Assembly: GCA_011033025.1 (NCBI GenBank)
Contig: WFMF01000011.1
Coordinates: 248,001-312,000, forward strand
DNA length: 64,000 nt
Direction: 5' to 3'
From: Beroe forskalii
Taxonomy: Eukaryota; Ctenophora; Nuda; Beroida; Beroidae
Positions 8,001 through 51,901 of the stretch are shown in pieces; position 1 is the stretch's first letter; every line of letters begins with the position of its first letter. The notes beneath the pieces were generated by a model. That model did no database searches. It saw only the letters and a program-made list of their open reading frames with translations, and was not told the DNA's origin. Position numbers and translations under genes: made by a program.

Positions 8001-8246
8001 TATGGTCGACCTTTTTTTTTGGAAACCGCCCAGAAAGACCTATTTAAGGCCATATATGTTAGGTGTATTTTGAGATGGGTCAAAAAGGAGGGCAAATTGG
8101 GCCTAAAGGAGTAGGGTGCGCCCTTTTTTCAAAGTTTTTTAGGCTCTTAGACTCGATTGTAGATCTCAGTGAGCTGATCACGAGGATATCAAGTTTTTTG
8201 AAATTGGACAATGTCTTCCTTTGCCTCTGGGCGTTTTTCTGTTTCG

Positions 8247-8275
8247 TGACGTCACATCACGTGACCTGTCACGTG
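8247..8275. promoter_or_regulatory. CRE plus two E-boxes in FB arm (FB1 left)
   Basis: A TGACGTCA full CREB/ATF site (8247-8254) is followed by two CACGTG E-boxes (8258-8263, 8270-8275). The same arrangement is kept in every arm end: 12913-12941, 25408-25436, 41990-42018 and 46904-46931. The E-box pair also forms a 10-bp-stem hairpin. About 110 bases inward lies a conserved donor-like G|GTAAGA. This could be a transcription-start region reading into the element; function is inferred from motifs alone. Confidence 0.45.
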
Positions 8276-8550
8276 ATCCGCCTGCTAGTACTTTGTGCGC
8301 GCTCTGATTCCGCGCGCGCAATTGCAATTCTATGCGCGTTCGCGGATCTGAGTTGTCTGTGTCAATTCTGTGCTATCTATGGCATTGGTAAGACTTATCT
8401 TTATTGAATAATAGAATTTTCTGTTACCAATCTATGATAGACGCAGATAGCAAATAATTTAAGGATCAGGTTATCTTGCCAGTGACATTTTCGAGGCTGA
8501 TAATTGCGATAACTTGGAAAATGGAAGCTCGAGTTTATACATTGAGAGCT

Positions 8551-8626
8551 GGCCGACTTGCCAGACAGCCAGCTAGCCGGTTAGCCAGCCGGCCTGCAGG
8601 TCGGCTAGCCGATCGTCTTGCCAGTG
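8551..8626. repeat. GCTAGCCGG-rich block of FB1 left arm
   Basis: GC-rich run of GCTAGCCGG, GCCAGCCGG and GACTTGCCAG words, each nearly self-complementary. The inverted partner is at 11187-11265; FB2 has longer versions at 42890-43005 and 45602-45708. Such nested small palindromes would fold even within one arm. Confidence 0.7.
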
Positions 8627-8911
8627 CAATTTTCGCGCTGATTATTGCGATTACTTGGAAAATGGAAGCTTTAGTTTATACACTGGGAGCCAAGAAGTAC
8701 ATTAGCACTATACAAGGTTAAAATTGTACATCCCAATCAGGATTCAGGGTGCATGTGAATGCCGAGTGTCCCCAGTCAGATCACAAGACAAGGCAAGGGA
8801 CACTCTCCCTCAACCAATGATCGAGCAGAAAAAGGTTCACGTGACTTTTAGAGAAGGAGGAGGAGGAAGCAAGCAAGCAGCATCTCTCCGACAATGAAAA
8901 GATCGGGGAAC

Positions 8912-10903
8912 GGACATTTCATCTCGCGTCACTTCATCTCATGACATTTCATCTTTGACACTTCATCTCAAAGTATAACATTTCATCACGTACTGTAAAT
9001 TGATTCTTTCCTGAAGTACGACATTTCATCTCCAGAGTGCGACGTTTCATCTCAAAGGGTACGACAATTCATCTTGTGCTGTAACTTGATTGTACTGACA
9101 TATGATCTCGAGAGTACGACGTTTCATCTCCAAGGCTACGACATTTCAACTCTGGGGTTGACACCTCTTATCAGGGTAGGAAACTTGATCTCAGTGTATG
9201 ACCCTTCATCTTAGCTTCTTAGACTGCGACATTACATCTCTCGGTATGACACTTCATCTCAGGTACGACACTTCATCTCAGACTGCGACATTTCATCTCT
9301 CGGTACGACACTTCATCTCAGACTGCGACATTCCATCTCTGGGAACAATACTTCATTTCAGAGTACGACACTTCATCTCAGGGTGTACGACACTTCATCT
9401 CAGACTGCGAACCTTTATCTCTGGCGGGTACGACACTTCATCTCAAGGTACGAAACTTCATCTCAGACAGCGACACTTCATCTCAGGGAACAAAACTTCA
9501 TCTCAGGGTTCAAAACTTCAACTCAGGGTACCACACTTCATCTCATGGAACGACACTTCATCTCAGACTGCGACACTTCATCTCTCAGTACGAAACTTTA
9601 CCTCAGACTGCGACACTTCATCTCAGGGTACAACACTTCATCTCAGACAACGACATTTCATCTCAGGGTACGACACTTCATCTCAGGTACGACACTTCAT
9701 CTCAGGGTACAACACTTCATCTCAGACAACGAGATTTCATCTCAGGGTACGACACTGCAACACAGGGTACGAAACTTCACTCAGACTGCGACACTTCATC
9801 TCAGGGTACGACACTTCATCTCAGGGTACGACATTTCATCTTTTGGTACCACAGTTCATATCAAACTGCGACACTTCATCTCTGGCCCGGCGGGTACGAT
9901 ACTTCATCTTTGACTGCGACACTTCATCTTTGGGTACGACACTTCCCAGGTATGAAGTGTTGCAGTCTGAGATGAAGTGTCGTACCTAGAGATGAAACGT
10001 CCCAGTCTGACTCTGAGATGAAATGTCGTAGTCTGAGATGAATTGTCGTACCCCGAGATGAAGTGTCGTAACCAGAGATAAATTGTCGCAATCTGAGATG
10101 AAGTGGCGTACCTAGAGATGAAATGTCCCAGTCTGAGATGAAGTGTCGTACCCTGAGATGAAGTGTCGTACCCAGAGATGAAGTGTCTTACCCTGAGACT
10201 AAGTGTCGTACCTGAGATGAAATGTCTCACCCTGAGATAAAGTGTCGTACCCAGAGATGAAATGTCGCAGTCGGAGATGATGTGTCGTACCCCGAGATAA
10301 ATTGTCGAACCCTGAGATGAAGTGTCGTACACTGAGATAAAGTTTCCTTCTTTGAGATGAAGTGTCGCAGTCTGAGATGAAGTGTCGTATCCTGAGTTGA
10401 AGTGTGGTACTCTGAGATGAAGTGATGTACCCAGAGATGAAATATCGCAGTCTGAGATGAAGTGTCGTACCTGGAGATGAAGTATCGTACCCACCAGAGA
10501 TGTTGTGTCTTTCCTTGAGATAAAGTGACACACCGAGAGATGAAATGTCGCAGTCTGAGATGAAGGGTCGTACGTTGAGATGAAGTTTCGTGCCCTGAGA
10601 TCAAGTTTCCCACCCTGATAAGAGGTGTCACCCCCAGAGATGAAGTGTCGTAGCCTTGGAGATGAAACGTCGTACTCTCGAGATCATAAATATCGTACTT
10701 TACAGAGTTACAGTACAATCAAGTTACAGCAAAAGATGAATTGTCGTACCCTTTGAGATGAAACGTCAAACGTCGCACTCTGAAGATGAAATGCCGTACT
10801 TCAGGACAGAATCAATTCACAGTACGAGATGAAATGTCGTACTCCGAGATGAAGTGTCGAAGATGAAATGTCGAGATGAAGTGTCGCGAGATGAAATGTC
10901 CGT
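8912..10903. repeat. inverted satellite block of FB1 (~20-bp units)
   Basis: From 8912 to about 9950 the unit CGACACTTCATCTCA plus a 4-6-base linker (mostly GGGTA or GACTG) repeats some fifty times. From about 9960 to 10903 the complement TGAGATGAAGTGTCG repeats in the other direction. Because the unit is about 20 bases and poor in stops, long frames appear on both strands with peptide words like DTSSQTATLHL; they are artefacts. The centre near 9948-9966 is shared with FB2. Confidence 0.93.
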
Positions 10904-11829
10904 TCCCCGATCTTTTCATTGTCAAAGAGATACTGCTTGCTTCCTCCCTCCTCCTTCTATCAGTCACGTGAACCTTTTCTGCTCGATCATTGTTGAGGGA
11001 GTGTCCCTTGCCTTGTCATGTGATCTGACTGGGGACACTCGGCATTCACATGCACCCTGACTCCTGATTGGGATGTACAATTTTAACCCTGTATAGTGCT
11101 AATGTACTTCTTGGCTCCCAGTGTATAAACTAAAGCTTCCATTTTCCAAGTAATCGCAATAATCAGCGCGAAAATTGCACTGGCAAGACGATCGGCTAGC
11201 CGACCTGCAGGCCGGCTGGCTAACCGGCTAGCTGGCTGTCTGGCAAGTCGGCCAGCCGGTGGTGTCAGAGACTGCCGTAATCGGAATTATCAGCTTGAAA
11301 ATGGCACTGGCAAGACTTGCTGATCCTAAAATTATCTGTTATCTGCGTCTATCGTAGATTTAGTAGATTGGTATCAGAAAATTCCATGGTGCCCCCATTA
11401 TGAGCGACGGTTCACAATCCTGAGGAATTGTATACCGTTATCTTGCCCGTTTCCCAATCATCTGAATCAGAAGAGCACGAATTCGCGATCTCAGAGAACA
11501 GAAATGCAGGTCCAATCCATGACTATGGGATTAGACCTCGATTCCCATTATTCCGAGCGACATTCCGTCGTTTTGAATCCGCTTTTTCCGCCTTTTTCAG
11601 ACCCAGGGGCCGGTGTAGCAACGCCAGACATAATCCCTTCTTGACTGAAATTATCATAATCTGTGTGGCGTGTTCCCAGCTGTTTCGTGAGTACCCCTTT
11701 TAATTGCGGACTCTTGCTAGTCTGCAATTCTGGTATCACTATCATGGTACCTTATTACTAATACTCAAGGAGCCTGGACTTGGAGTTATACTTCCTAATT
11801 TTGGAATCTGCGGGAACAAAATTCCTGTA

Positions 11830-12286
11830 TCTCTAATTATAATTTGGTAAGTGTGTATGGATTTTGTGTCGGCGTGTGTGTGGATTATTGTGTCGGCATC
11901 ATAGATTAGAATGGGAAAACCGTGTGTATGGACACTGTGTCGGCGTGTGTGTGGATTTTGTGTCGGCGTGTGTATGGACCATTGTGTCGGCATCATAGAT
12001 TAGAATGATAAATCGGTGTGTATGGGCACTGTGTCGATGTGTGTATGGATTTGTGTCGGCATGCACGTGCAGATAGGGGGGAATGTGCTTGCGTTGCTAT
12101 GGTAACATGTATAGAGTGTTAATTCAATTTCTTGCTTTGTTGGTTATGTTACGCTATTTCCCTGAATAATTTTGGTTCTGATTCGGATTTCTCGATGCGT
12201 TAAATAGTTTTTTCATTAATTTGAACTGCGTAGGTCTGAAATTTGACAGTGTGATGCTGCGTAGCAGCGCCGAACGGGCCTGCTAG
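11830..12286 (+). mobile_element. non-autonomous Helitron A inside FB1
   Basis: Begins TCTCTAATTATAATTTGGTA and ends GGGCCTGCTAG, with a GCTGC-GTA-GCAGC hairpin about 14 bases before the terminal CTAG. It sits between A and T with no target duplication. FB2 holds the uninterrupted site (A46281/T46282), which proves the boundaries. These are the hallmarks of Helitron rolling-circle elements (5' TC, 3' hairpin and CTRR, AT target). The interior has two roughly 120-base units rich in TGTGTCGGCRT and a GTTGCTATGG block shared with Helitrons B and C. No Rep/helicase coding. Confidence 0.9.
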
Positions 12287-13192
12287 TACTTCCATAACTC
12301 ATGATTAAAAAAGTACAAAACAATAAAACGGATTTTTTGTGTTTCACTTTTCACAAATCTCGGGATCGGAATAAGCTTCAAGACTGCCGAACGATGAAAT
12401 AGAATTAGCAAGAGTGCCTACTCGTTGAAATATAACAAACTAGGTCACTGTTAACTGGATTTCTTCATGGTCAAAGAGATACTGCTTGCTACATCCTCTA
12501 TCAGTCACGTGAACCTTGTTCTGCTCTATCAATGGTTGAGGGAGTGTCCTCTGCTTTGTCATGTGATCTGACTGGGGACACTCCTGATTGGGATGTACAA
12601 TTTTAACCCTGTATAGTACTAATGTACTTCTCAGCTCTCAATGTATAATCTTGAGCTTCCATTTTCCAAGTTATCGCAATTATCAGCCTTAAAATGTCAC
12701 TGGCAAGATAAGCTGATCCTTAAATTATTTGCTATCTGCGTCTATCATAGATTGGTAACAGAAAATTCTATTATTCAATAAAGATAAGTCTTACCAATGC
12801 CATAGATAGCACAGAATTGACACAGACAACTCAGATCCGCGAACGCGCATAGAAATAGAATTGCAATTGCGCGCGCGGAATCAGAGCGCGCACAAAGTAC
12901 TAGCAGGCGGATCACGTGACAGGTCACGTGATGTGACGTCACGAAACAGAAAAACGCCCAGAGGCAAAGGAAGACATTGTCCATTTTCAAAAAACTTGAT
13001 ATCCTCGTGATCAGCTCACTGAGATCTATAATCGAGTCAAAGAGCCTAAAAAACTTTGAAAAAAGGGCGCACCCTACTAAAGGAGGGCAAAAAAGAGGGC
13101 TCGGAGGGCAAGACCCAAAAAGGAGGGCAAAAAGAGGGCATGAGAGGGCGCCCTCTCAAAAAGAGGGCAGTTCGGAAGCTATGGACGAGAAC

Positions 13193-21650: not shown

Positions 21651-22311
21651 TTTTCCAGTACATAGTTGTTAAACATTTCCTGGTTTCAATATTATGGATT
21701 TTAATTTAAAAAACGACAACAACAAATAACGTGCTGTTTGCAGGTTGGTAGAAAAGGGCACAATTGCAAGTGTCATTTTGAAATTCACATTCCCAGCAAC
21801 CCTTTCCTTGAAATCAAATAATTCACAGAAACACAATAATCTAACTTCTGCGAACTCATCATTGATTACTCATGAACTTATTAAAACTTGGAGCTTTACG
21901 TCAAGACATTATTGTATGGGAATAAGAATTTTCTGTTATTAAAAATGCTGAAATTTAATATAATAACTAAAACTCAGCCCAGAGAGCATGTGACAGATTA
22001 TTTCTCTAAAAAAATTTGGGGGAAATTTTTTGGTATTTTTAAAAAAATATAAAACTATAAAATTTGTTGATTCTGTAATGAGAAATTAAAGAAAAAGCTT
22101 GTAATAATGCAAGCATTTTTAGTAAAAAGTAGCCCTAAATTTAGGCAAAATTTAATGAAGTAATTGGCAGACATAGGCGAAATTTTCTTTAATTAAATGT
22201 CTAATTAAGTAATTGGCGACAATTTTGATCCCCTCCAATTTTCAAAATGCCAAAAATTAGCCTTAAAAGTCGAATCATCCCCTCCAATGAAAAATACGGA
22301 TTTGCACCACT
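21651..22311. other. no gene; AT-rich flank
   Basis: AT-rich, including a TTTAAGGCTAATTTTTGGC-like inverted stretch near 22230-22270. Nothing coding was supported, and the short frame at 21745-21942 has no recognisable features. Confidence 0.45.
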
Positions 22312-25300
22312 GATGACCGAGCAGAACAAGGTTCTCGTGACTGATAGAGGAGGAAGCAAGCAGTATCTCTTTGAACATGAAAATCCAGTTACTTGGTGAC
22401 CCTAGTTTGTTATATTTTAACGAGTAGGCCCCCTCTACCTAATTCTATTTCATCGTTCGACGCAGTCTTGAAGCTTATTCGATCCCGGATCTGTGAAATG
22501 TGAAACATTGACCCCCAAACGTGATACCTCCCCATTTGACATCCCCCGACAATACATCCCCCGACACTTCACCCCTACAATTTTGATAAATCTATAGAGA
22601 AGCGGGGGTCGACGTCGCGATTCGATAATTGCTGCGACATTTATTCTTCAATACATCGATGAATAAACATAGATCCAACGCGCTGATCCATACGACTTGA
22701 CCAAAAATTGTCTTTGGTTAGGTGTCTAGCAAAGCCTGACCCTAACCCTGACCCTTGCAACTGCGTAGAGGCGGCATATTGCGAGATAAGGTGGTGAGAT
22801 GAAATGTCCGTTCCCAATTACGTGCTCTTCTGATTTGGAAGTTGGAAGCTTGCGGCCAAGATAACGGTATATAAGTTCCTCAGGTTGTGAACCGTCACTC
22901 AAAATCTGGGCACCATGAAATTTTCTATTACCAATCACACTAATCTACAGCAGATAACAGATGATTTTAGAATCAAGCAAGTCTTGCCAGTGCCATTTTC
23001 AAGCTGATAATTGCGATTACTTGCAAAATGGAAGCTTAAGTTTATACATTGAGAGCCAAGAAATACATTAGTACTATACAAGGTTAAAATTGTACATCCC
23101 AATCAGGAGTGAGTGTCCCCAGTCAGATCACATGACAAAGCAAGGGACACTCTCCCTCAACTCAATGATCGAACAGAACAAGGTTCACGTGACTGATAGA
23201 GAAGGAGGAGGAAGTAAGCAGTATCTCTTTGACCATGAAAAGATCCACGGAACCGACATTTCATCGCGACACTTCATATCGACATTTCATCTCCGACACT
23301 TCTTCTCAAAGTACGAAATTCAATCTCGTACTGTTTATCGATTGTCTTAAAGTAGACGTTGATCTCCAGTGCGGCCGTTTCATCTCAAAGGGTACGACAC
23401 TTCATCTCACTGGAACTTGATTGTACTGTAACGTACGACATTTGATCTCCAGAGTGCGACGCCATCTCAAAGGTAGGACACTTCATCTCTGGGGATGACA
23501 CCTTTTATCAGGGTAGGAAACATGATGATCTCAGGGTACGACAATTCATGTCAAATTACGACACGCCGTCTCAGACTGCAACATTTCATCTCTGTATAAG
23601 GCACTTCATCTCAGACTGCGACACTTCATCTCAATGAAAGACACTTCATCTCAGGATACGGCCTTCATCTCAGGGCGACACTTCAACTCAGGGTACGACA
23701 CTTCATCTCATGGAAGTGGAACGACACTCATCTAAGACTGCGACATTTCATCTCTCGGTACGACACTTCATCTCTCGTCACGATTCTTTATCTCAGACTG
23801 CGACACTTCATCTCTAGGTGCGACATTTCATCTCTGGGTACGCCACTTCATCTCAGGGGTACAATACTTCATCTCAAGGTACGACATCTCATCTCTGGGT
23901 ACAACACTTCATCTCACTTCATTTTAAGGGCACACACTTGATCTGTGACATTTCGTCTCTGGATACTACACTTCATTTGGCATTCACGTTATTTCATCTC
24001 AAGGAACGACACTTCATCTCAGGGTGGACAATTCATCAGACTGCGGTATTTTCATCTCTTTATCTCAGGAACAACACTTCATCTCAACCTTGATCTCAGA
24101 CTTCGAATTTTCATATTTGGCGGGGATGACACACTTAAATCTCAGGTAGGAAACTTCATCTCAGGGTACAACACTTTATCTCAGAGTACAACACTTCATC
24201 TCAAGGCTACGACATGGGGATGACACCTTTGTCAGGGTACGAAACTTCATCTCAGGGGGACACTTCATCTCGCGTACGACACTTCATCTCAGGGTACACA
24301 CTTCATTTTTTCACTTCATCTCAGGGTACAACGCTCATCTCTGGGTACGACACTTCATCTCAATCTGCATATTTATCTCGGCACAACATTTCATCTCTGG
24401 TACGACCTTCAATCTCGCACTGCAACATTTCATCTCTGGGTACTATTAATTTACTGAGTACGACACTATCTTAGGGTACGACACTTCATCTCAGGGTACA
24501 ACGCTTCATCTCTGGATATGACACTATCTCAGACTGCGAGATTTCATCTCTTGGCAATTGACACTTCATCTCAGACTGCGACATTTCATCTAGGTACGAC
24601 CTCATCTCAGGATAAGACATCATCTCAGGTACGACACTTCATCTCAGGGTAAGACACTTTATATCTGGGTACAACACTTCATCTCGGGGTACGACACTTC
24701 ATCTCAGATTGCGACACTTCAAATCCCTTCAAATTCATGACTGATATTTCCAATTCCATACTCATGATTAAAAAAGAACAAAACAATAAAACGGATTTCT
24801 TAGTGTTTCACATTTCACAGATCTCGGGATCGGAATAAGCTTCAAGACTGCCGAACGATGAAATAGAATTAGGTAGAGGGCCTACTCGTTAAAATATAAC
24901 AAACTAGGTCACCGTTAACTGGATTTCTTCATGTTCAAAGAGATACTGCTTGCTTCCTCCTCTATCAGTCACGAGAACCTTGTTCTGCTCGGTCATTGGT
25001 TGAGGGAGAGTGTCCTCTGCTTTGTCATGTGATCTGACTGGGGACACTCAGCAGTCACATGCACCCTGACTCCTGATTGGGATGTACAATTTTAACCCTG
25101 TATAGTACTAATGTACTTCCCAGCTCTCAATGTATAAACTTAAGCTTCCATTTTCCAAGAAATCGCACTAATCAGCTTGAAAATGGCAATGGCAAAACTT
25201 GCTGATTCTTAAATTATTTGCTATCTGCGTCTATCATAGATTGATTCAGAAAATTCCATTATTCAATAAAGATAAGTCTTGCCAATGCCATAGATAGCAC

Positions 25301-25571
25301 AGAATTGACACGGACAACTCAGATCCGCGAACGCGCATAGAATCACAATTGAGAATTACAATTGCGCGCGCGGAATCAGAGCGCGCACAAAGTACTAGCA
25401 GGCGGATCACGTGACAGGTCACGTGATGTGACGTCACGAAACAGAAAAACGCCCAGAGGCAAAGGAAGACATTGTCCAATTTCAAAAAACTTGATATCCT
25501 CGCGATCAGCTCACTGAGATCTACAATCGAGTCAAAGTGCCTAAAAAACTTTGAAAAAAGGGCGCACCCTA
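22312..25571. mobile_element. foldback element FB3, left-truncated and rearranged
   Basis: The right arm is complete: arm sequence from about 24745 ends in the family terminus GGCGCACCCTA at 25571. On the left, 22312-22505 is the inverted partner of 24790-24995, but the outer left end is missing. About 22506-22795 is unrelated (it includes three CCCCCGACA words), and the satellite at 23258-24729 runs in one direction only. No matching 9-bp copy of the right flank ATATTGTCT was found. It looks older than FB1 and FB2: its satellite units are more diverged and indel-rich. Confidence 0.85.
23258..24729 (+). repeat. satellite block of FB3
   Basis: Same about-20-base unit as FB1/FB2 (CGACACTTCATCTCA plus linker), in one orientation, with many indels and mutated units. 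Short open frames here are by-products. Confidence 0.9.
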
Positions 25572-28443: not shown

Positions 28444-28518
28444 GGACCCTAAAATCCATAACCCGGAAACAACCTCTCCCTGTCACTAGCTATTTAAACC
28501 CGTGGTACTCCGGGGGCT

Positions 28519-30738
28519 ATGTCGCAGGATGAGGGTGTCATGGATGAGGGCATTGGGGCCTCGGTTAGTCCACTGTTACAGGTGAATGATAAAGGCAATG
28601 GCAAAATGGATAATGGCAATGGAGATGATTGTTATAAAGTAGTGTGTAAAGCTGATGAACTCAAAGATACACCTCAAGCCTCCGAAGATACACCTCAAGC
28701 CTCCACCACCACACTCAAGAGATCTCTGCCAGGTACTAAGCCTAAAACAATGGCTAAAGTGGTTCTTAAAAACACTAAGTCTAAGACCAAAAAACTGGCC
28801 ATACAGAAACACTCCTCCTCTAAACCTGTGCCTAAAACTATGCCTAAGACTATTCCTAAATTCAATAAGAATGGGTACTGTTCTGTTTGTAAAAATAGCA
28901 ATGCATTGGAGGAATCAATAGCGTGTAATGTTTGTGACACACTTTTTCATGCTATCTGTAGGGAAAAGAGAACTAACTGCCCAAGTTCAAAATCAATCTG
29001 CACCAAAACATTTTTAGACCAGGTCAGACCTGTAATGGCAAAATTTGGTGCAAACTCTAATCGTTGGGGACATTTTATGTTTGTTTGTGACAGATGCTCT
29101 GAACTTGTACAACAAGCCAAGACTGGAAAATTAAACATCAAAGAACCTGAAGTAAATGACTCCGGTGTTACCTGCAATATCATCCCTAGTGAAGTGAGTG
29201 CAGAGCCTAATTCTCCACCAGAGAAAGTTGATACTGGATTGAACTGTTTGTTGCTATCAGATAGCAAAATAATAAGCTCTTCTGATGCTTCTACTAATAC
29301 TATGACTGAAGACATGTTCACAACAGTTAATGTCTATTCTATGACAGATAAAAATGGCCATGATAGCATTGATGGAACTAAAAATGACACAACTCACTGT
29401 CATGATACAGTTCATTCTGAAGTCCCTATTCCTAACTCAGCTTCAGTTAGTAATTTCATTACCCCTGATGAAGATGAATGTGATATCAATACAAGTGGTA
29501 ATGATGAGCTGTTTACAAAGATTGGAAATCATATTGAATTGTTGTTTAACTCCATGAAGGACAACCTCCTCTCAGATGTAGATCAAATCATATCAGAAAA
29601 GCTCTCAATTTCTGGCCTCTCAACTCCCTCAATGTCTGCATCATCCACACCCATGTCAATGAAATCAGACACTCCTGAAGCATCCAGCATGTTCAGCCTC
29701 AATCCCACCTCAAAATCATATGCAGAATCTGTAAGTTCTTCTGTCACATCTTCTAATCACAGCAGTAGTTGTTCTGGAGACAGGCGACACAGCATAGACT
29801 CTTTAATCTCTGAGGCCAAATCAAGCTCTAATACAACAACCAAGGCAGCCCCAATCCATGCCAAAACAGGTGTGAGCAGCCATGGAAAGACAGATCCTGA
29901 GGAAACTGAGCATTGTATTGTTCTTAAAGGTGAAGGGGCTAACTTATCTGAAATAAAGAAATCTGTTGAGAAAAAACTAGCTAGCATTCAGCTAACATTT
30001 CTAAAGGTTAATGAGAGTGGTAAAAAACTACTGGTTGGTTTTCCCAATGATCACATGAAAGAAAAAGGTTTGAACATTCTTAATGAATACATTGAAGTTC
30101 ATGAGCGTGGTCTTGATCTTTCTGAAGCTAAAAAGATGTACCCAAAACTTACTGTCACTAATGTTCCTAACTACCTCCTTTCTCACATAATAGAGAAAAA
30201 ACAAAATATGTCATTGAATGAATTTAGAGACAAACTGAAAGATTACCTAAAACTCAAGTTTTTGGAGAAAGATGAATTCATCAATGAACAAGTTCATAAG
30301 GAAGACAAAATGTTTTCTGTTGTTTATGTCAGTGTTGGTAAAGATTACACCACACTTGCAGTTAAGGTCTCGCCAGTTATAAGAACCCACCTCATCCATA
30401 GTCGCAATCAGTGGATCTATATTGGTAACACAAGGTGCAGGGTTACAGATAGGTTTAATGTAAAACAATGCTTTAAATGCCAAAAATTTGGCCATATGTC
30501 AGCTGACTGCTCAGAGTCACATACTGTGTGCATGTACTGCAGTGCATCCCACAGTACAAAGTCATGTCCTGAAAAGAAAAATCCTGCTGCATTTAGATGT
30601 AGCAACTGTTCAAAATCTCGCACTTCATCCTATGTGGCATCTTGTAACACACATCACTCAGGTTCTGACTTGTGCCCAGTCATGATATCTGAAAAGAAAA
30701 GTCTTGAGAAAAAGACTGAGTTCTCAAAAAACATATAA
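28519..30738 (+). CDS. LINE ORF1 protein, PHD-like and CCHC fingers
   Basis: An intact 739-residue frame. Residues about 120-165 form a PHD-type cysteine cluster (CSVC, then IACNVCDTLFHAIC, spacing C-x2-C-x11-C-x2-C-x4-H-x2-C). Residues about 130-450 are otherwise serine/threonine-rich and likely disordered. From about 470 (HCIVLKGEGANLSEIKKSVE) there is a folded region, possibly RRM-like. The C-terminus carries zinc knuckles, CFKCQKFGHMSADC (about 651) and CMYCSASHSTKSC (about 670), with a third cluster CSNC...C...H...C to about 720. In LINEs such proteins bind the element RNA and act in the ribonucleoprotein. The start ATG lies at the head of a long open frame; stop TAA at 30736. ORF2 overlaps its end in the -1 frame. 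Confidence 0.88.
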   Translation: MSQDEGVMDEGIGASVSPLLQVNDKGNGKMDNGNGDDCYKVVCKADELKDTPQASEDTPQASTTTLKRSLPGTKPKTMAKVVLKNTKSKTKKLAIQKHSSSKPVPKTMPKTIPKFNKNGYCSVCKNSNALEESIACNVCDTLFHAICREKRTNCPSSKSICTKTFLDQVRPVMAKFGANSNRWGHFMFVCDRCSELVQQAKTGKLNIKEPEVNDSGVTCNIIPSEVSAEPNSPPEKVDTGLNCLLLSDSKIISSSDASTNTMTEDMFTTVNVYSMTDKNGHDSIDGTKNDTTHCHDTVHSEVPIPNSASVSNFITPDEDECDINTSGNDELFTKIGNHIELLFNSMKDNLLSDVDQIISEKLSISGLSTPSMSASSTPMSMKSDTPEASSMFSLNPTSKSYAESVSSSVTSSNHSSSCSGDRRHSIDSLISEAKSSSNTTTKAAPIHAKTGVSSHGKTDPEETEHCIVLKGEGANLSEIKKSVEKKLASIQLTFLKVNESGKKLLVGFPNDHMKEKGLNILNEYIEVHERGLDLSEAKKMYPKLTVTNVPNYLLSHIIEKKQNMSLNEFRDKLKDYLKLKFLEKDEFINEQVHKEDKMFSVVYVSVGKDYTTLAVKVSPVIRTHLIHSRNQWIYIGNTRCRVTDRFNVKQCFKCQKFGHMSADCSESHTVCMYCSASHSTKSCPEKKNPAAFRCSNCSKSRTSSYVASCNTHHSGSDLCPVMISEKKSLEKKTEFSKNI

Positions 30739-30747
30739 AGCCTTTAT
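30726..30747 (+). promoter_or_regulatory. candidate -1 ribosomal frameshift site
   Basis: A AAA AAC (30726-30732) is a canonical X XXY YYZ slippery heptamer read in the ORF1 frame (TCA AAA AAC ATA TAA). A one-base backward slip continues into CAT ATA AAG, the exact frame of the endonuclease domain of ORF2. The ORF1 stop follows six bases later. Downstream, ATAAA-GCC-TTTAT (30735-30747) can form only a weak hairpin; a stronger stimulator was not seen. ORF2 has no ATG before 30966, which lies inside the domain. Confidence 0.55.
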
Positions 30748-33653
30748 GCCCCAAAACAAATGTCTGCTGTTTCAACCCTCGATCAATCTGTAATAAAACA
30801 TTTGAAGTATTTGAGTATGTCTCAGATTCACAGACTGACATCTGCTGCCTAACAGAAACATGGCTCAGAAAGGGTGACTCATCAAAACTAGCAGAAATTA
30901 AGAAACTGGGCTACTACACATTCACTCAATCAAGAGCAGGGAGAGGTGGTGGAGTTGCCATTGCTGTGAAGAAATGTATTAATGCCACTAAAGTGAATTC
31001 TACTACTTACAAATCCTTTGAGCACATTGAATGTCTGGCTAAATCAGTTTCTAATGACTTACTTAGAGTATGTTGTGTTTATCGTCCTGGAACCTCCTCA
31101 AGCATGAATGAATTCTTTGTTGATTTTGATACTTATCTGCAGTACCTGTTGCATCTTCCTGGAAAGCTTATCATTTGTGGAGACTTTAATATTCATGTGG
31201 AAAATGGAGATTGTCCAGACACTAAGAAGTTCCAAGCAATCTTGTCTAACTATGGATTGATCCAACATATTTCTACACCAACGCATGTTCATGGAGGAAC
31301 ACTAGATCTTGTCCTCACTAGAAGCAACACATGTGACAGCCTTGCAATTTCAGATATCAAAATTATCGAAACAACCACAACATCTGACCACTTTTTTGTT
31401 GGATTTGCCTGCAACTTTGAATATCTCCCCAATAGTGAACAACTCGTCATCAAGGCTCGAAACTTTAAAGATATTGATCTGGAGAAGTTCAAAGCAGATA
31501 TAATGTCTTCAGATATCAATAAGACTGATACATTCATGGACTGTAATAATGCACTGAAGATATTGGAAAATGAACTCCTTAAAATCATTGATAAGCATGC
31601 ACCAATAAAGGCATTCAAGACCAACCCTAATCAAGATGTGTGGATTAATAGTGATTGTCAGAAGGCAAGAAGGCTGAGGAGGAAATATGAAAGAGCTCAT
31701 AAGCGATTGCAGACATCTGAATCAAAGACAGCATGGAAAGATGCAAGCAAACATGCAAGCCTTCTGATTGATTCAACTCTTCAGAGTTTTTATTCAGAAA
31801 AGTTCTCTCTTAGTGGCAATGATAAAAAGAAAACATATCAAATAGTGAATGACCTCATGGATAAGGAGTCCCATGCTAACTGCTATCCAAATGATAAGCC
31901 ATGTGCTATTGTTGCTAAAGAAATGAAAAATTTCTTTGAAGACAAAATCACTAAAATAAACACTGAAATAAGGAAAAGGCACCCTATAATTGCTAAAAAT
32001 GCTGCTGATTCATTAGATTTCAATGGTGGACAGTTTTCTAAATTTATGTCAATCAATGAATCTCAACTCATGGCTACCATATCAGATCTAAATAAAAAGA
32101 ACTGTGAGCTTGATCCTCTCCCAATAAAACTATTCCTTGAATGTATTGATGTCCTGAAGACAATCTTGCTGTTCATTGTCAATGACTCACTTCAGAAAGG
32201 AATTTTTCCTGATGACCTCAAAGATGCTTTGGTTAGACCCTCAGTTAAAGATAAAACAGGAGATAAAAATGATTATAGCAACTATAGACCAATCAGTAAT
32301 TTACCATTTATCTCAAAGATTATCGAAAAGTGTGTTCAAAAACAGTTATCTGATCTTCTGATCACCTGGAAAATCATGGTCTCCATGCTGAACATCAAAG
32401 TGGGTATAGGATGAACCATAGCTGTGAGACTGCCACACTCACTATCTACAATGATTTACTTTGTGTCACAGACCTTAAAAACAAAGTTGTTCTTCTCCTT
32501 CTTGATCTGAGTGCTGCATTTGATACTGTGAATCATTCCCTCCTCCTATCAAAACTGCACAAAAAATTTGGTCTATCTGGAGTTGTGCTGAAATGGTTTA
32601 CATCATACTTAAAGGACCGTTCATTCACAGTAACTATAAACAACAGCAAGTCTGACAAATGTTACATATGTATTGGAGTGCCTCAAGGATCAATACTTGG
32701 GAGTTGGGCCAATATTATTTATTCTTTATACAAAAGAAATAGAACTCATTGCCAGAAAATATGGATTTACCATACACATGTTTGCTGATGACAATCAGAT
32801 TTACATTGAATTCAATCCATTGCTCCATGACATGAAAGACATTGAGAGTAAGATCATAAACTGTCTCAGTGACATCAAAGTCTGGATGACAATGAATCAA
32901 CTTTGCCTTAACTCCAAAAAGACAGAGGCAATTATAATAAGACAAAGGAATTCATATGATAGCTCCTTGCCACATTCAATCAAAGCCAACTATAGTGGTG
33001 AATCTATTGAACCAGCTACTGGAAGTATCAAGAGCCTTGGTGTCTTCTTTGATCAGTATCTGTGCTTTGAAGACCACATAAACAAAATTGTTCAGGCTTG
33101 TAACATTCATCTTAGGAATTTACATGTTATTGGCAATAAGCTGTCTCTGGACCTGAAGAAGCAACTTGTTCATTGTTTGATATTCTCAAGACTGGACTAC
33201 TGTAACGGTCTTCTCTATGGTCTCCCAAGTCAGCTACTGAAGAAACTTCAGAAAGTTCAGAACTCTTGTGCAAGGTTTCTCTTTGGTTCTAGAATCAAAA
33301 AATTTGATCATGTGACACCATTCCTCAAAGAGGCTCATTTCTTGCCAATCAAAGAAAGAATTGAATTCAAAATTGCCCTCATGACATTCAAATGCATGAA
33401 CAACATTGCACCAGAATACTTGAGAAAGTGCATTGAAGTGAAACAGCAGCCACATAGGCTCCTAAGAAATGAATTAGACTACTTCCTTCTTGAAATGCCA
33501 CCTGTTGCAAACTATGAAAGGACTTATCGTGGATTCAAGTATGCTGCGCCCCATATATGGAACTCATTACCCTATTATTTAAGAACTGAAAGTGATATAG
33601 TGCAGTTTAAAACCAAGCTTAAAACCCATTTATTCAGGAAGGCATTTGACTAG
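30726..33653 (+). pseudogene. LINE ORF2: APE endonuclease + reverse transcriptase, two frame breaks
   Basis: Endonuclease motifs in order: NPRSI (about 30777), LTETW (about 30858), GRGGGVAI, CGDFN (about 31177), LDLVLT and TSDHF (about 31383), as in the L2/CR1 group. Reverse transcriptase motifs: YRPISNLPFISKIIEK (about 32283), LLDLSAAFDTVNHS (about 32500), GVPQGSILG (32675) and the catalytic FADD (32781-32792). The C-terminus carries APHIWNSLPYYLR and LKTHLF and ends at 33653. The frame is broken near 32365-32380 (net one-base change before HAEHQSGYR). It is broken again at 32697-32708, where TTGGGAG/TTGGG is a 7-base tandem duplication directly after the GVPQGS motif. This copy therefore cannot make active reverse transcriptase. 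Translation from ORF1 by frameshift is inferred. Confidence 0.88.
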
Positions 33654-41705: not shown

Positions 41706-41854
41706 CGTGGCTCACTCGGGGCGCTTTCTATGCCTGTGTGGGTGTGACAGGTGTGTATACTCGCGACGCCGCGCGCTTCTCCTGGCAAGCGCACCATGAC
41801 CAGCGCCGGCTTGTGAAAGGTTAAGATCAGGAATATGGTCAGTGCATGATATGT

Positions 41855-44800
41855 TAGGGTGCGCCCTTTTTTCAAAGTTTTTTAGGCTCTTTGACTCGAT
41901 TGTAGATCTCAGTGAGCTGATCACGAGGATATCAAGTTTTTTGAAATTGGACAATGTCTTCCTTTGCCTCTGGGCGTTTTTCTGTTTCGTGACGTCACAT
42001 CACGTGACCTGTCACGTGATCCGCATGCTAGTACTTTGTGCGCGCTCTGATTCCGCGCGCGCAATTGCAATTCTATGCGCGTTCGCGGATCTGAGTTGTC
42101 TGTGTCAATTCTGTGCTATCTATGGCATTGGTAAGACTTATCTTTATTGAATAATAGAATTTTCTGTTACCAATCTATGATAGACGCAGATAGCAAATAA
42201 TTTAAGGATCAGCTTATCTTGCCAGTGACATTTTCAAGGCTGATAATTGCGATAACTTGGAAAATGGAAGCTCAAGTTTATACATTGAGAGCTGAGAAGT
42301 ACATGAGTACTATACAGGGTTAAAATTGTACATCCCAATCAGGAGTGTCCCCAGTCAGATCACATGACAAAGCAGAGGACACTCCCTCAACCATTGATAG
42401 AGCACTCTTGCTAATTCTATTTCACCGTTCGGCAGTCTTAAAGCTTATTCCGATCCCGAGATCTGTGAAATGTGATACACAAAAAATCCGTTTTATTGTT
42501 TTGTATTTTTGTCTGGCGTTGCTACACCCCCAGGGTCTGAAAAAGGCGGACAAAGCGGATTGAAAATGACGGAATGTCGCTCGGAATAATGGGAATCGAG
42601 GTCTAATCCCATAGTCAGGTATTAGACCTGCACTTCTGTTGTCTGAGATCGCGAATTCGTACTCTTCTGATTCAGATGATTAGGAAACGGCCAAGATAAC
42701 GGTATGCAAGTTCCTCAGGATTGTGAACCGTCGCTCAAAATCTGGGCACCATGGAATTTTCTGATACCAATCTACTAATTCAACGATAGACGCAGAAAAC
42801 AGATAATTTTAGAATCAGCAAGTCTTGCCAGTGCCATTTTCAAGCTGATAATTGCGATTACGGCAGTCTTAAGAACTTCTCTGACACCACCGGCTGGCCG
42901 ACTTGCCAGACAGCCAGCTAGCCGGTTAGCCAGCCGGCCAGCAGGTCGGCTAGCCGGCCGGCTGGCGGCTAGTTAGCCAGCTGGTCGGCTAGCCGATCGT
43001 CTTGCCAGTGCAATTTTCGAGCTGGTAATTGCGATTACTCGGAAAATGGAAGCTTTAGTTTATACACTGGGAGCCAAGAAGTACATTAGCACTATACAAG
43101 GTTAAAATTGTACATCCCAATCAGGAGTCAGGGTGCATGTGAATGCCGAGTGTCCCCAGTCAGATCACATGACAAGGCAAGGGACACTCTCCCTCAACCA
43201 ATGATCGAGCAGAAAAAGGTTCACGTGACTGATAGAGAAGGAGGAGGAGGAAGCAAGCAGTATCTCTTTGACAATGAAAAGATCGGGGAACGGACATTTC
43301 ATCTCGCGACACTTCATCTCATGACATTTCATCTTCGACACTTCATCTCAAAGTACGACATTTCATCTCGTACTGTAAATTGATTCTATCCTGAAGTACG
43401 ACATTTCATCTCGAGAGTACGACGTTTCATCTCCAAGGCTACGACATTTCAACTCTGGGGTTGACACCTCTTATCAGGGTAGGAAACTTGATCTCAGTGT
43501 ATGACCCTTCATCTTAGACTGCGACATTACATCTCTCGGTATGACACTTCATCTCAGAGTACAACACTTCATCTCAGAGTTCGACACTTCATAGCTCAGA
43601 CTGCGACATTTCATCTCTCGGTACGACACTTCATCTCAGACTGCGACATTCCATCTCTGGGTACAATACTTCATTTCAGAGTACGACACTTCATCTCAGG
43701 GTGTACGACACTTCATCTCAGACTGCGAACCTTTATCTCTGGCGGGTACGACACTTCGTCTCAGGGTGTACGACACTTCATCTCAGACAGCGACACTAAT
43801 CTCAGGGAACAAAACTTCATCTCAGGGTTCAAAACTTCAACTCAGGGTACCACACTTCATCTCATGGAACGACACTTCATCTCAGACTGCGACACTTCAT
43901 CTCTCAGTACGAAACTTTACCTCAGACTGCGACACTTCATCTCAGGGTACAACACTTCATCTCAGACAACGACATTTCATCTCAGGGTACGACATTTCAT
44001 CTCAGGTACGACACTTCATCTCAGGGTACAACACTTCATCTCAGGGTACAACACTTCATCTCATGGAACGACACTTCATCTCAGACTGCGACACTTCATC
44101 TCTCAGTACGAAACTTTACCTCAGACTGCGACACTTCATCTCAGGGTACAACACTTCATCTCAGGGTACAACACTTCATCTCAGACAACGACATTTCATC
44201 TCAGGGTACGACACTTCATCTCAGGGTACGACATTTCATCTTTTGGTACCACAGTTCATATCAGACTGCGACACTTCATCTCTGGCCCGGCGGGTACGAT
44301 ACTTCATCTTTGACTGCGACACTTCATCTCTGGGTACGACACTTCCCAGGTATGAAGTGTTGCAGTCTGAGATGAAGTGTCGTACCTAGAGATGAAACGT
44401 CCCAGTCTGACTCTGAGATGAAATGTCGTAGTCTGAGATGAATTGTCGTACCCCGAGATGAAGTGTCGTAACCAGAGATAAAGTGTCGCAATCTGAGATG
44501 AAGTGGCGTACCTAGAGATGAAATGTCCCAGTCTGAGATGAAGTGTCGTACCCTGAGATGAAGTGTCGTACCCAGAGATGAAGTGTCTTACCCTGAGACT
44601 AAGTGTCGTACCTGAGATGAAATGTCTCACCCTGAGATAAAGTGTCGTACCCAGAGATGAAATGTCGCAGTCGGAGATGATGTGTCGTACCCCGAGATAA
44701 ATTGTCGAACCCTGAGATGAAGTGTCGTACACTGAGATAAAGTTTCCTTCCTTGAGATGAAGTGTCGCAGTCTGAGATGAAGTGTCGTATCCTGAGTTGA

Positions 44801-47067
44801 AGTGTGGTACTCTGAGATGAAGTGTTGTACCCAGAGATGAAACATCGCAGTCTGAGATGAAGTGTCGTACCTGGAGATGAAGTATCGTACCCGCCAGAGA
44901 CTCAGAGATGTTGTGTCGTTCCTTGAGATGAAATGTCGCAGTCTGAGATGAAGGGTCGTACACTGAGATGAAGTGTCGTACGTTGAGATGAAGTTTCGTG
45001 CCCTGAGATCAAGTTTTCCACCCTGATAAGAGGTGTCCCCCCCAGAGATGAAGTGTCGTAGCCTTGGAGATGAAACGTCGTACTCTCGAGATCAAATATC
45101 GTACTTTACAGAGTTACAGTACAATCAAGTTACAGTAAAAGATGAATTGTCGTACCCTTTGAGATGAAACGTCAAACGTCGCACTCTGAAGATGAAATGT
45201 CGTACTTCAGGATAGAATCAATTTACAGTACGAGATGAAATGTCGTACTTTGAGATGAAGTGTCGAAGATGAAATGTCATGAGATGAAGTGTCGCGAGAT
45301 GAAATGTCCGTTCCCCGATCTTTTCATTGTCAAAGAGATACTGCTTGCTTCCTCCTCCTCCTTCTCTATCAGTCACGTGAACCTTTTTCTGCTCGATCAT
45401 TGGTTGAGGGAGAGTGTCCCTTGCCTTGTCATGTGATCTGACTGGGGACACTCGGCATTCACATGCACCCTGACTCCTGATTGGGATGTACAATTTTAAC
45501 CTTGTATAGTGCTAATGTACTTCTTGGCTCCCAGTGTATAAACTAAAGCTTCCATTTTCCAAGTAATCGCAATTATCAGCTCGAAAATTGCACTGGCAAG
45601 ACGATCGGCTAGCCGACCAGCTGGCTAACTAGCCGGCCGGCTAGCCGACCTGCAGGCCGGCTGGCTAACCGGCTAGCTGGCTGTCTGGCAAGTCGGCCAG
45701 CCGGTGGTGTCAGAGAAGTTCTTAAGACTGCCGTAATCGGAATTATCAGCTTGAAAATGGCACTGGCAAGACTTGCTGATTCTAAAATTATCTGTTATCT
45801 GCGTCTATCGTAGATTTAGTAGATTGGTATCAGAAAATTCCATGGTGCCCCGATTATGAGCGACGGTTCACTATCCTGAGGAACTTGTATACCGTTATCT
45901 TGGCCGTTTCCTAATCATCTGAATCAGAAGAGTACGAATTCGCGATCTCAGACAACAGAAATGCAGGTCTAATCCATGACTATGGGATTAGACCTCGACT
46001 TATTATTCCGAGCGACATTCCGTCGTTTTGAATCCGCTTTTTCCGCCTTTTTCAGACCCAGGGGGTGTAGCAACGCCAGACATAATCCCTTCTTGACTGA
46101 AATTATCATAATCTGTGTGGCGTGTTCCCAGCTGTTTCGTGAGTACCCCCTTTAATTGCGGACTCTTGCTAGTCTGCAATTCTGGTATCACTATCATGGT
46201 ACCTTATTACTAATACCCAAGGAGCCTGGACTTGGAGTTATACTTCCTAATTTTGGAATCTGCGGGAACAAAATTCCTGTATACTTCCATAACTCATGAT
46301 TAAAAAAGTACAAAACAATAAAACGGATTTTTCTGTGTTTCACCCTTCACAAATCTCGGGATCGGAATAAGCTTCAAGACTGCCGAACGATGAAATAGAA
46401 TTAGCAAGAGTGCCTACTCGTTGAAATATAACAAACTAGGTCACTGTTAACTGGATTTCTTCATGGTCAAAGAGATACTGCTTGCTTCCTCCTCTATCAG
46501 TCACGTGAACCTTGTTCTGCTCTATCAATGGTTGAGGAAGTGTCCTCTGCTTTGTCATGTGATCTGACTGGGGACACTCCTGATTGGGATGTACAATTTT
46601 AACCCTGTATAGTACTAATGTACTTCTCAGCTCTCAATGTATAATCTTGAGCTTCCATTTTCCAAGTTATCGCAATTATCAGCCTTGAAAATGTCACTGG
46701 CAAGATAAGCTGATCCTTAAATTATTTGCTATCTGCGTCTATCATAGATTGGTAACAGAAAATTCTATTATTCAATAAAGATAAGTCTTACCAATGCCAT
46801 AGATAGCACAGAATTGACACAGACAACTCAGATCCGCGAACGCGCATAGAATTGCAATTGCGCGCGCGGAATCAGAGCGCGCACAAAGTACTAGCAGGCG
46901 GATCACGTGACAGGTCACGTGATGTGACGTCACGAAACAGAAAAACGCCCAGAGGCAAAGGAAGACATTGTCCATTTTCAAAAAACTTGATATCGTCGTG
47001 ATCAGCTCACTGAGATCTAGAATCGAGTCAAAGAGCCTAAAAAACTTTGAAAAAAGGGCGCACCCTA
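41855..47067. mobile_element. foldback element FB2, intact, 9-bp TSD
   Basis: Ends TAGGGTGCGCCC at 41855 and the complement at 47067, with perfect 9-bp duplications ATGATATGT (41846-41854 and 47068-47076). Left arm 2.49 kb, right arm 2.72 kb, centre near 44345. From outside in, each arm has: a conserved terminus with CRE/E-boxes and a CGCGCGCAATTGCAATT block; two related modules both starting CTTGCCAGTGMCATTTTC and ending in CTCCCTCAACCAWTGAT; a GCTAGCCGG block; then the about-20-base satellite. No transposase frame. Near-identity to FB1 over kilobases indicates recent mobility with an enzyme supplied elsewhere. Confidence 0.95.
43292..45310. repeat. inverted satellite block of FB2
   Basis: Same unit and centre as in FB1. 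Within the left half a run of units from about 43850 to 44000 is repeated at about 44045-44200, showing amplification by unequal exchange or slippage since FB1 and FB2 separated. Long frames here are artefacts. Confidence 0.93.
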
Positions 47068-47084
47068 ATGATATGTTTAGTGTT

Positions 47085-49692: not shown

Positions 49693-50536
49693 TTTGGGAA
49701 AAAGTTGAACTTTGATCATGCTGAATACTATAAAACATGTGCTAGAACTAGGTCTATTGATGAACAATTAGCTCCAAAAGACTATGTACTGGAACATACC
49801 AAACCACTTTTCACAGATTTGAAATTACTTACTGTTCATAACCTTCAGATAATTTTTGTGCTGAATGAAATTTTCAAAATTAGGAAATATAGATATCCAA
49901 TTCCCATGTTTACATTACTTAAGAATTCTCCTGACTCCATGAGAAGTTGTCAAAGGGGCAAAATTGTGGTGCCTAAGTATAAACTAGAAACATCAAGGCA
50001 GCAATTTTTATATTGTGGCTCCACAGTATGGAATAAATTCAAAAGTAAAGCTACTCATCTGGATACTGACTTTCTTTCTGACATGTCCACATCATCTTGT
50101 GTTGCAAAAAACAAGTTCAAAAATTTTTACATGGCCTTCAGTCATCAGGGCATCCTCAGCTATGGGAGAACCACAACCTTACCCTAAACTAAGCTTTTCT
50201 CATCAAATAAGAATAATGTTTCTCTGGAGGGAATTTATTTTTCTACAACCCTACAAAAAATTGCGGGATTTCAACTCGTTTTTAGCCGGTGTTTGGGTTG
50301 CGCTAAGCACAGTGCTTCAACTGCCTTAATCCTTTATAATATAATTCTGAATCAGTAAACTATTTTGTTTTAACTAAACTATGAAGAATGAACTCTTCAA
50401 GACATAAGCAAGCATGGGCTTCGCTGTTTCACTGTTTTGAGACTGCTTTTAGAGGAATTGAATAATTTTTGTTATTATAATTATTTTAATTTATTTATAT
50501 TATTATAACTTATCACTTTTTTGAGGCAACATCATC

Positions 50537-51901
50537 ATGGCTATCAATACAGAAATTTGGAATGTTGGTGTGGCAAGTATTGTGATGATGCTTTTGTATG
50601 CAACTTGTTCTGCAGGTTTTGATATGCTGAATGCATCATTGGCAGATAGTAGTAAAGCAGGAATGGATGCTAAAGTTGGATACTTATGCTCAAGCATATA
50701 CTGTTTTGTTTCACTGGCTGGTTCCTTTATTGCGCCTTTATTGATTGTTATTCATTCTAGATTTGTCATATTCTGCTCTTCCTTGCTTTATGTTCCATTT
50801 TATATTGGAGTCATATTTCTTAACAAGATTGCAATCATCAGTGGATCTGCTATTACTGGAATTGGTGATGGTGTTGTATGGGTTGCAGTCTATGATTATG
50901 TTGTAAGGATATCAAAGAGAGAGAACCTTGAGAGAAACATGAGCTACTTCATTTTTGTTTACAGTTTTGCTGCATTAGTTGGCAACCTTATAAATTATTT
51001 CAATATTGAAGATCCTACAAAGATAACAGACTCTACTCGTGTACACATATTTAGTACTTTTGCTGCTCTTGCTACATTTGCTGGATTTTTGGCTTTGTTT
51101 GGACTTAGGAAAATGCCTCCATCAGATGATGCTGACAGAAACTCACAATCATCTGATTCTGCCAGCAAAAGACTTCTTGGTTCAACTTCTGATGACAATG
51201 ATGAAGAACAAGGAAATTCTAGCAACCATCTCTATCAGCCCCAAACTAAGTTTCAAAGGCTATTAAAATTTTTCCTAACACCAGCAACACTTGCACAAAT
51301 GGCCACCAGCATAGTTTCAAGCTTATGTGACTGTTGGGTGGTAATAATCTGTACATGTATAAGGAATTCATATAGCAACAGGCACTTGATACCCATATTT
51401 GGCATTATCTTTGGTTGTTGTAAAGTGTTATTATGTGGTATCTGGAATAAGATTTCCACACTTTTAGGCTACAAGTTCATGATATATGTCACATCCACTA
51501 TTTCCTTGATATGGCTGACTTTTGTTTTTATTATGTTTCCTCCTCTTTCTATTCACGAAAAGAGTGAAGCTGCTGATGCTCTTGTGTCATTTGGATCCTG
51601 GGCAGTTATATTGTTAGGACTACTTACAGGAATTTCCAGAACTTGGATGGATTTATTGAAGCAAATTTCCTGTGGAACATGCTCAAAGTCAGAAGAAGTA
51701 ATGCAAGGCTTTCAGCCTGGTCTACTTTTTAGTGTAAAGACTATTTTTTGGAGTTCAACAAGTGCCATTGTTTATGCACTTGTGCCCTATATGAACCTCT
51801 ATATTTTGGTTGGCATAACATTTGTTGGTTTGATTGCCAATCACTTCTTGTTTATGCATATCATCCTTAAATTCTTTCTTAGTGAACATCAAAGTCAATG
51901 A
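50537..51901 (+). CDS. UNC93-like major facilitator membrane protein
   Basis: A 454-residue, single-exon frame with about eleven hydrophobic segments. The N-terminal half (NVGVASIVMMLLYATCSAGF, then IYCFVSLAGSFIAPLLIVI, then SAITGIGDGVVWVAVYDYVV) follows the layout of UNC93 proteins, where a short loop and a GLG-x-x-x-x-W-type motif precede a tyrosine. The central cytoplasmic loop (residues about 190-235) is serine- and acid-rich (DDADRNSQSSDSASKR, DDNDEEQGNSS). A further six hydrophobic segments follow. UNC93 family members regulate potassium channels in worms or traffic Toll-like receptors in vertebrates; the substrate of this one is unknown. The ATG follows an AT-rich leader and begins just before the first membrane segment. 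Absence of introns may mean a retrocopy or a naturally intronless gene. The frame is intact. Confidence 0.75.
   Translation: MAINTEIWNVGVASIVMMLLYATCSAGFDMLNASLADSSKAGMDAKVGYLCSSIYCFVSLAGSFIAPLLIVIHSRFVIFCSSLLYVPFYIGVIFLNKIAIISGSAITGIGDGVVWVAVYDYVVRISKRENLERNMSYFIFVYSFAALVGNLINYFNIEDPTKITDSTRVHIFSTFAALATFAGFLALFGLRKMPPSDDADRNSQSSDSASKRLLGSTSDDNDEEQGNSSNHLYQPQTKFQRLLKFFLTPATLAQMATSIVSSLCDCWVVIICTCIRNSYSNRHLIPIFGIIFGCCKVLLCGIWNKISTLLGYKFMIYVTSTISLIWLTFVFIMFPPLSIHEKSEAADALVSFGSWAVILLGLLTGISRTWMDLLKQISCGTCSKSEEVMQGFQPGLLFSVKTIFWSSTSAIVYALVPYMNLYILVGITFVGLIANHFLFMHIILKFFLSEHQSQ

Follow-up and report, generated by a model that had tools for sequence, protein, structure and literature searches.

Drosophila FB/NOF and sea-urchin TU elements are foldback transposons built from long inverted arms of tandem repeats, which generate target-site duplications (TSDs) of 9 and 8 bp, respectively. 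Galileo, a member of the P superfamily, has long, internally repetitive arms and duplicates 7 bp of its target. In a stretch of 64,000 nucleotides from the ctenophore Beroe forskalii (assembly GCA_011033025.1, contig WFMF01000011.1, positions 248,001 to 312,000; hereafter the window) we have characterised FB2, a 5.2-kb element which is likened to Drosophila FB/NOF and TU by structure, not by sequence, and which shares the type of arms with Galileo, whereas TSDs in its family (FB, as distinct from Drosophila FB/NOF) measure 8-9 bp. Three further systems provide closer parallels. Muta1, a MULE from Aedes aegypti, duplicates 8 or 9 bp of its target when assayed in yeast; its authors term it a type-2 foldback, and more than 300 putative non-autonomous derivatives accompany it (PMC5225508). 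Tm1 of root-knot nematodes, a Mutator/foldback element, possesses a FLYWCH-MULE transposase and TSDs of 8-10 bp (PMC3169594). Tetris of Drosophila virilis, whose complete copies show TSDs of 8-9 bp, was assigned to Mutator in part for this reason (PMC4079207). As set out below, FB2 is probably a recent insertion of a non-autonomous foldback family which is served in trans by a MULE transposase of the Muta1/Tm1/Phantom type (FLYWCH-DDE).

Insertion sites and copies of the FB family

FB2 is bounded by a perfect TSD of 9 bp (ATGATATGT), and its two ends are identical and inverted, the right terminus being the reverse complement of TAGGGTGCGCCC (Table 1). Over the outer 551 bp the left and the right arm are 98.7% identical. 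Apart from the satellite core on the axis of the element the arms, referred to as the shell, comprise 1430 and 1751 bp and share 97.6% identity where they align; a further 339 columns are gaps. FB2 hence displays the long inverted arms with internal tandem repeats that characterise foldback elements. Within its end, AGGGTGCGCCCT forms an imperfect 12-bp palindrome (10 of 12 positions), a score which 0.8% of the 12-mers of the window attain. Of the motif GCTAGCCGG the window contains six occurrences, two of them in FB1 and four in FB2, compared with 0.08 expected by chance. For the outer 240 bp of FB2, Tandem Repeats Finder returned no row, i.e. there are no tandem units directly behind the shell tip. 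Subterminal clusters of CACGTG, spotted by eye, are common to FB and to the foldbacks of locus L071, whose arms are unrelated.

The assembly (216 Mb, 1134 contigs) was searched with the 19-base FB end, allowing for at most one mismatch. This yielded 106 forward and 103 reverse ends, thus 209 in total, of which 100 were listed individually, while the reversed control gave 0 and 0; the exact longer ends listed number 65 and 94. The family accordingly comprises about a hundred copies. The 40 terminal matches scored extend over 342-364 bp and are 96-100% identical; since the set was picked by near-exact ends, it is biased towards young copies. End pairs co-occur at many loci, and in 40 of 42 facing pairs a perfect TSD is located directly outside the ends, 21 of these duplications measuring 9 bp and 19 measuring 8 bp (two further pairs seen, at C759 and C564, are left out of this count). 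In the control, consisting of 1722 wrong pairings of the identical flanks, the longest match amounts to 5 bp. The TSDs prefer the pattern NYR...YRN, with a pyrimidine at position 2 in 34/40 (T in 23/40) and a purine at position n-1 in 31/40 (A in 18/40).

At four sites (FB2, FB1, C110:408001 and C159) the flanks were joined with one TSD copy retained, and the genome was searched for uninterrupted relatives of the resulting sequence. For C110:408001, 23 places carry the joined flanks unbroken at 84-96% identity over nearly all 260 bp, and for FB1 the junction is crossed without interruption in all 40 scored places. The C159 site is uninformative because relatives of FB1 occupied the 40 scored places, among which its own locus is absent. 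The perfect TSDs together with these uninterrupted empty-site relatives therefore demonstrate transposition with target duplication, which must have been recent as the TSDs are exact and the scored terminal matches 96-100% identical. The FB family is young, non-autonomous and of the cut-and-paste kind.

Besides FB2 the window harbours a second complete copy, FB1, and a partial one, FB3. In the 4405 columns without gaps FB1 and FB2 share 97.7% identity. On the left side of FB3 a MULE-type tip ends at position 22816 and a hAT-like end is situated at 22298-22312, and no left end was found within 13100-22900. The hAT-like end at 22298-22312 and another at L140:622 cut two FB copies at the identical FB position, and ATGACCGA adjoins the end in both; the hAT element either multiplied together with FB or favours this target site.

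The original prediction, made from the window alone, had described a multi-copy, recently active foldback transposon at 41846..47076. Its limits are exact, comprising TSD, element and TSD; the copy number, the TSDs and the empty-site relatives agree with it, as do the facing pairs of the two ends at many sites outside this locus. Other statements hold in part. Consistent duplications of 9 bp had been expected, which is correct for FB2 but not genome-wide (21 of 9 bp, 19 of 8 bp and 2 absent among 42); copies without consistent 9-bp duplications were to refute the prediction, which is thus half the case, yet the mixture of 8 and 9 bp still fits animal MULEs (PMC5225508). Of the three copies announced for 64 kb two are complete whereas FB3 has a broken left side, and the near-identity of FB2 to FB1 is found in the aligned bases but is accompanied by 808 and 560 gap positions.

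Table 1. Position of FB2, its constituents and the other FB copies in the window
Feature	Position	Strand	Remarks
FB2 element	41855-47067		5.2 kb; ends TAGGGTGCGCCC ... GGGCGCACCCTA
Left TSD of FB2	41846..41854	none	ATGATATGT
Right TSD of FB2	47068..47076	none	ATGATATGT
FB2 left outer 239 bp	41855..42093	+	starts TAGGGTGCGCCC
FB2 right outer 239 bp	46829..47067	-	inverted repeat of left outer 239 bp
FB2 left shell arm	41855..43284	+	terminus, duplicated module, GCTAGCC-rich palindromes; ends at core
FB2 right shell arm	45317..47067	-	inverted
Palindromic module, left arm	42890..42999	+	GCTAGCCGG-type; limits set by eye
Palindromic module, right arm	45603..45704	-	GCTAGCCGG-type, inverted; limits set by eye
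Core of FB2 (apparently MULE-type)	43285..45316		tip GGGGAACGGAC at both ends; two inverted satellite fields inside
20-bp satellite	43396..44282	+	unit GTACGACACTTCATCTCAGG; about 44 copies
20-bp satellite, inverted	44352..45104	-	about 38 copies
FB1, second complete copy	8112..13076		TSD CTAAAGGAG at 8103-8111 and 13077-13085
FB3, partial copy	22313..25571		right end intact (25571); left side rearranged and interrupted

Shell and satellite core

In FB2 the core occupies the axis between the two inverted arms and is not surrounded by a TSD of 8-9 bp. Both core tips are present in six of eight complete FB copies inspected (FB1, FB2, L069, L074, L075 and L076). In these six the borders of the core invariably read ACAATGAAAAGATC/GGGGAAC and GTTCCCC/GATCTTTTCATTGT, which are exact mirror images over the 14 bases compared, and there is no direct repeat of 8 or 9 bp around the core. 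Its composition, a short tip followed by tandem units of ~12-20 bp and inverted at both ends, is that of MULEs of the Tm1/Muta1 type. Moreover, the core tip GGGGAACGGAC agrees in all of its 11 bp with the start of the coding FLYWCH-MULE L051, which carries repeat units behind its tip and has an 8-bp TSD of its own (TGACACAC). The 21-base core tip (at most one mismatch) was found 507 times in the genome, with 0 in the control, and is thus more than twice as frequent as the shell end.

At L071 identical tips are situated on the axis of inverted arms which give no blastn match to FB2. Four further pairs of core tips were encountered, two of them (C214, C248) in L071-type and two (C247:723414, C110:101353) in FB2-type arms. 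The short FB copies L149 and L150 (2.37 and 2.45 kb), on the other hand, match FB2 in blastn solely within the outer 239 bp (82-84%) and differ from it in their palindromes and satellites; the satellite field of L149, as read by eye, lies between a different pair of MULE-like tips. Since one core occurs in unrelated arms and one terminus around other centres, terminus and core are separable modules. The satellite centre of FB2 appears to be a second, MULE-type unit with its own tips which stems from another transposon family. The arms had originally been described as filled with satellite; satellite and palindromes are indeed there, but the centre looks like a unit separate from the shell.

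MULE ends in this genome (L039, L051, L054, L055 and others) carry tandem units of ~14-20 bp behind a variable tip, the unit differing from family to family, and the satellites seem to grow out of such units. A 2-kb array of short tandem units is present at L073:5267-7404 within an FB copy having an intact 9-bp TSD. An FB element is thus able to carry large simple repeats.

As to how shell and core came together, we tentatively propose that the insertion of a MULE followed by inverted duplication makes new two-ended foldbacks. A MULE with inverted, repeat-rich ends would have inserted into an ancestor that possessed a single arm. With the inverted repeats of the core itself as template, an inverted duplication would then have transferred a copy of the arm, TAGGG end included, to the opposite side, so that a one-ended remnant would have turned into a mobile two-ended element with the MULE in axial position. 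Cores and shells may have assorted afterwards, leaving one core in the arms of both FB2 and L071 and one terminus in both FB2 and L149. Such an origin would explain the identical sequence at both ends, the mirror-image flanks of the core and the lack of a core TSD. The inverted duplication is, however, a step which we infer from anatomy only, and this has to be held against it.

It is also conceivable, and we would put it just as cautiously, that core and shell are one family and that recombination or gene conversion between foldbacks accounts both for the core that L071 shares and for the other centre present in L149. Layered repeats of this kind within single elements are described for Tetris and Tm1 (PMC4079207, PMC3169594). 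In each FB2-type copy read, the core flanks are identical, as if the whole were one travelling unit. Furthermore, three copies are devoid of a complete tip pair: among the eight complete FB copies L070 has one core tip and L073 has none, and no MULE-like tip was seen in the short copy L150, all of which also counts against a distinct MULE-type core. Against one single family speak the complete MULE-like core tip, which a coding MULE with an 8-bp TSD of its own shares, the excess of core tips over shell ends (507 vs 209) and the further tip pairs, which fall in both types of arms.

The transposase of the family

Seven open reading frames (ORFs) of at least 110 amino acids overlap FB2, the seventh lying mostly outside the element. 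Six of the seven were compared with Pfam, and none reached the cut-off of any family. This agrees with the earlier claim that FB2 is non-autonomous; the supply of the enzyme in trans, claimed at the same time, is what we infer. A coding frame starting from the extreme end of FB2 (window 41800-42150) was considered and rejected: it contains early stops in many of 45 distinct ends, its substitutions are distributed over codon positions 1/2/3 as 29/25/14, and it has no Pfam match. A 40-residue transposase fragment gave no match to phage records.

Genome-wide profile searches were carried out with PF10551, PF12762, PF05699 and PF12017. The MULE profile PF10551 produced 46 matches, and FLYWCH plus MULE domains were detected in three of five MULE frames tested. 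There are 35 matches to IS1595/Merlin-type domains and 23 to hAT genes; PF12017 (P-type transposase) gave 0 matches, in this genome and in every control genome alike. An automatic search for tips and TSDs at 30 MULE loci, confined to TSDs of 8-10 bp, gave rows for 12 loci and none for 18. After exclusion of L046, L047, L050, L064 and L066, whose rows lie inside tandem repeats, seven usable loci remain, of which five (L039, L040, L054, L055, L068) show a 9-bp and two (L044, L051) an 8-bp TSD. The IS1595/Merlin-type frames at L137, L138 and L139 are uninterrupted and 306-330 codons long; perhaps they represent domesticated genes.

Transposase sequences close to or within FB copies were inspected individually. 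L062/L071 resembled a foldback that carries the FB satellite and codes for its own enzyme, but its MULE, too, lies within the satellite and has its own TSD (GATGAAATG). In the complete sequences of four larger FB copies (L073-L076) no frame of at least 120 codons fit to be the transposase of the family was seen; judged solely by eye, L074 and L076 comprise MULE-like fragments and L074 also a frame of IS1595 type. At L140 a hAT gene is located 5 kb from an FB end, and it is nested since its own CAGTGGTG end cuts into the FB arm. The frame concerned (L140:2733-5282) is unbroken over 850 codons and of hAT type (DUF4371 plus hAT dimerisation domain). A second hAT match is 7.2 kb away from the FB end at C761:13448.

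The best clue to the enzyme is the mixture of 8- and 9-bp TSDs, on account of which we would assign the family to the MULEs; TSDs within the MULE range of 8-10 bp are found in 40 of the 42 FB pairs. The FLYWCH-MULE genes of this genome and the TSDs at the seven usable MULE loci speak for this assignment as well. A MULE transposase supplied in trans would recognise the outer ~240 bp, above all TAGGGTGCGCCC; the family spreads by cut-and-paste transposition with target duplications of 8 or 9 bp. Several results weigh against this reading. A coding element combining FB ends with its own transposase, which the original prediction had hoped for, was not found among the ends listed and the copies read, the latter not including the large copies C759, C836, C564, C309:88884, C325 and C357. 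The transposase genes inside FB copies read (L069, L070, L074, L140) are nested or fragmentary, and TAGGGTGCGCCC without the following T, as another terminal family with equal first 12 bases would have it, occurs at 2 places compared with 1 in the control. None of the MULE tips read here resembles TAGGGTGCGCCC, candidate tips being available for 12 of 30 loci and unusable in 5. The preference of FB TSDs for NYR...YRN contrasts with Muta1, which is reported to have none (PMC5225508), and leaves room for a hAT-like enzyme. With respect to the insertion itself, a TSD is absent from two of the 42 end pairs (C177:333590 and C249:295919), which were scored as failures. Finally, an uninterrupted FB2 site does not occur among the matches listed (best 40 of 1910 candidates), which consist of the two half-sites of FB2 itself and of copies of one flank only.

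That the FB transposase belongs to a different superfamily with similar TSDs, namely Merlin (IS1595-like) or hAT, is unlikely in our view. Both superfamilies are represented in the genome by the matches given above. Merlin TSDs measure 8-9 bp, and the FB tip TAGGG as well as the T-rich position 2 and the A-rich position n-1 of its TSDs recall hAT ends and targets. hAT elements, however, uniformly duplicate 8 bp, whereas 21 of the 42 FB pairs show 9 bp, and the one hAT gene read near an FB end, that of L140, is nested in an FB arm into which its own end cuts. Regarding Merlin, none of the 35 IS1595 matches is positioned between facing FB ends among those listed (compared by eye), and the 2.1 kb examined at each of the genes L137, L138 and L139 contain no inverted 12-mers.

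Far less probable still is a helper in the form of the MULE genes which lie inside two FB copies, C367 (L069) and C658 (L070), and which would make these copies autonomous FB elements. In both, PF10551 is matched between listed FB ends flanked by a perfect TSD (8 bp at L069, whose left end is not exactly TAGGGTGCGCCC, and 9 bp at L070). Yet the MULE sequence of L069 resolves into two units with their own tips and their own 9-bp TSDs, CTCGATCAT and GTCAGGCCG, the CTCGATCAT site being empty in FB2. The MULE piece of L070 is broken and shares 97.6% and 94.7% identity with L054 and L045, respectively, which are located elsewhere; L054 is free-standing with the TSD AAGAGACGG, and its site is empty in a related sequence beside another FB copy. 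Segmental duplication or an assembly artefact, which the clustering of three FB copies within 40 kb of one contig might call to mind, has a practically negligible probability: flanks and perfect TSDs differ at 40 sites, which already refutes it, and two copies possess empty-site relatives. We retain a MULE transposase acting in trans as the probable source of FB mobility.

Further features of the window and comparison with described systems

Outside the FB copies, the window contains a non-long-terminal-repeat retrotransposon (28498-33653) with a zinc-knuckle ORF1, whose endonuclease and reverse transcriptase are encoded in different frames, the match of the latter remaining below the Pfam cut-off. 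In addition, there is a frame for an UNC-93/MFS-type membrane protein (50525-51901), probably a host gene, and an array of 40 copies of the 7-mer CAGTCAC (1913-2195).

Foldback elements as such, foldbacks of MULE type and the growth of satellites within foldbacks have been described before. What appears to be new is the occurrence of one MULE-type core in foldbacks with unrelated arms and of one terminus around different centres, which was not found in the literature searched. A full-text search with the FB end and satellite sequences returned no relevant paper, the five matches looking like chance agreement in primers. Dozens of young copies whose insertion sites are exactly defined, at least two families of arms with a common core and related MULEs as candidate helpers coexist in one genome. 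Sequence comparison and an excision assay in the manner of Muta1 could hence test how long inverted arms come about and how satellite DNA arises from the ends of transposons. The near-perfect palindromic arms of kilobase length are likely sources of inversions and breakage.

Like FB, Muta1 combines 8- or 9-bp TSDs with a foldback structure, and its tip, comparable to AGGGTGCGCCCT, is an imperfect palindrome as well (PMC5225508). Its terminal inverted repeat is 145 bp long, and subterminal repeats of 12 bp begin right behind the tip (PMC5225508). The FB shell, in contrast, lacks a tandem unit in the outer 240 bp, has arms of 1.4-1.8 kb, and a coding parent was not found for it. Tm1 resembles the FB core and not the shell: a 7-bp tip, GGA and a repeated ~14-bp motif follow the plan of the core, the sequences being different, and 1-9 units stand against a repeat field of ~1 kb per side in FB (PMC3169594). 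Tetris, finally, shares with FB the non-autonomous state, the inverted repeats layered into an outer domain, a set of tandem repeats and an inner domain, the TSDs of 8-9 bp in complete copies and a helper that was not found; it was put in Mutator by TSD size and precedent (PMC4079207). Its tandem unit measures about 220 bp compared with about 20 bp in FB, and 3 structurally complete copies are described, compared with 40 FB copies having perfect TSDs (PMC4079207). Unlike that of Tetris as described, the tandem-repeat part of FB resembles a separate MULE-type core which has its own tips and is present in a second shell.

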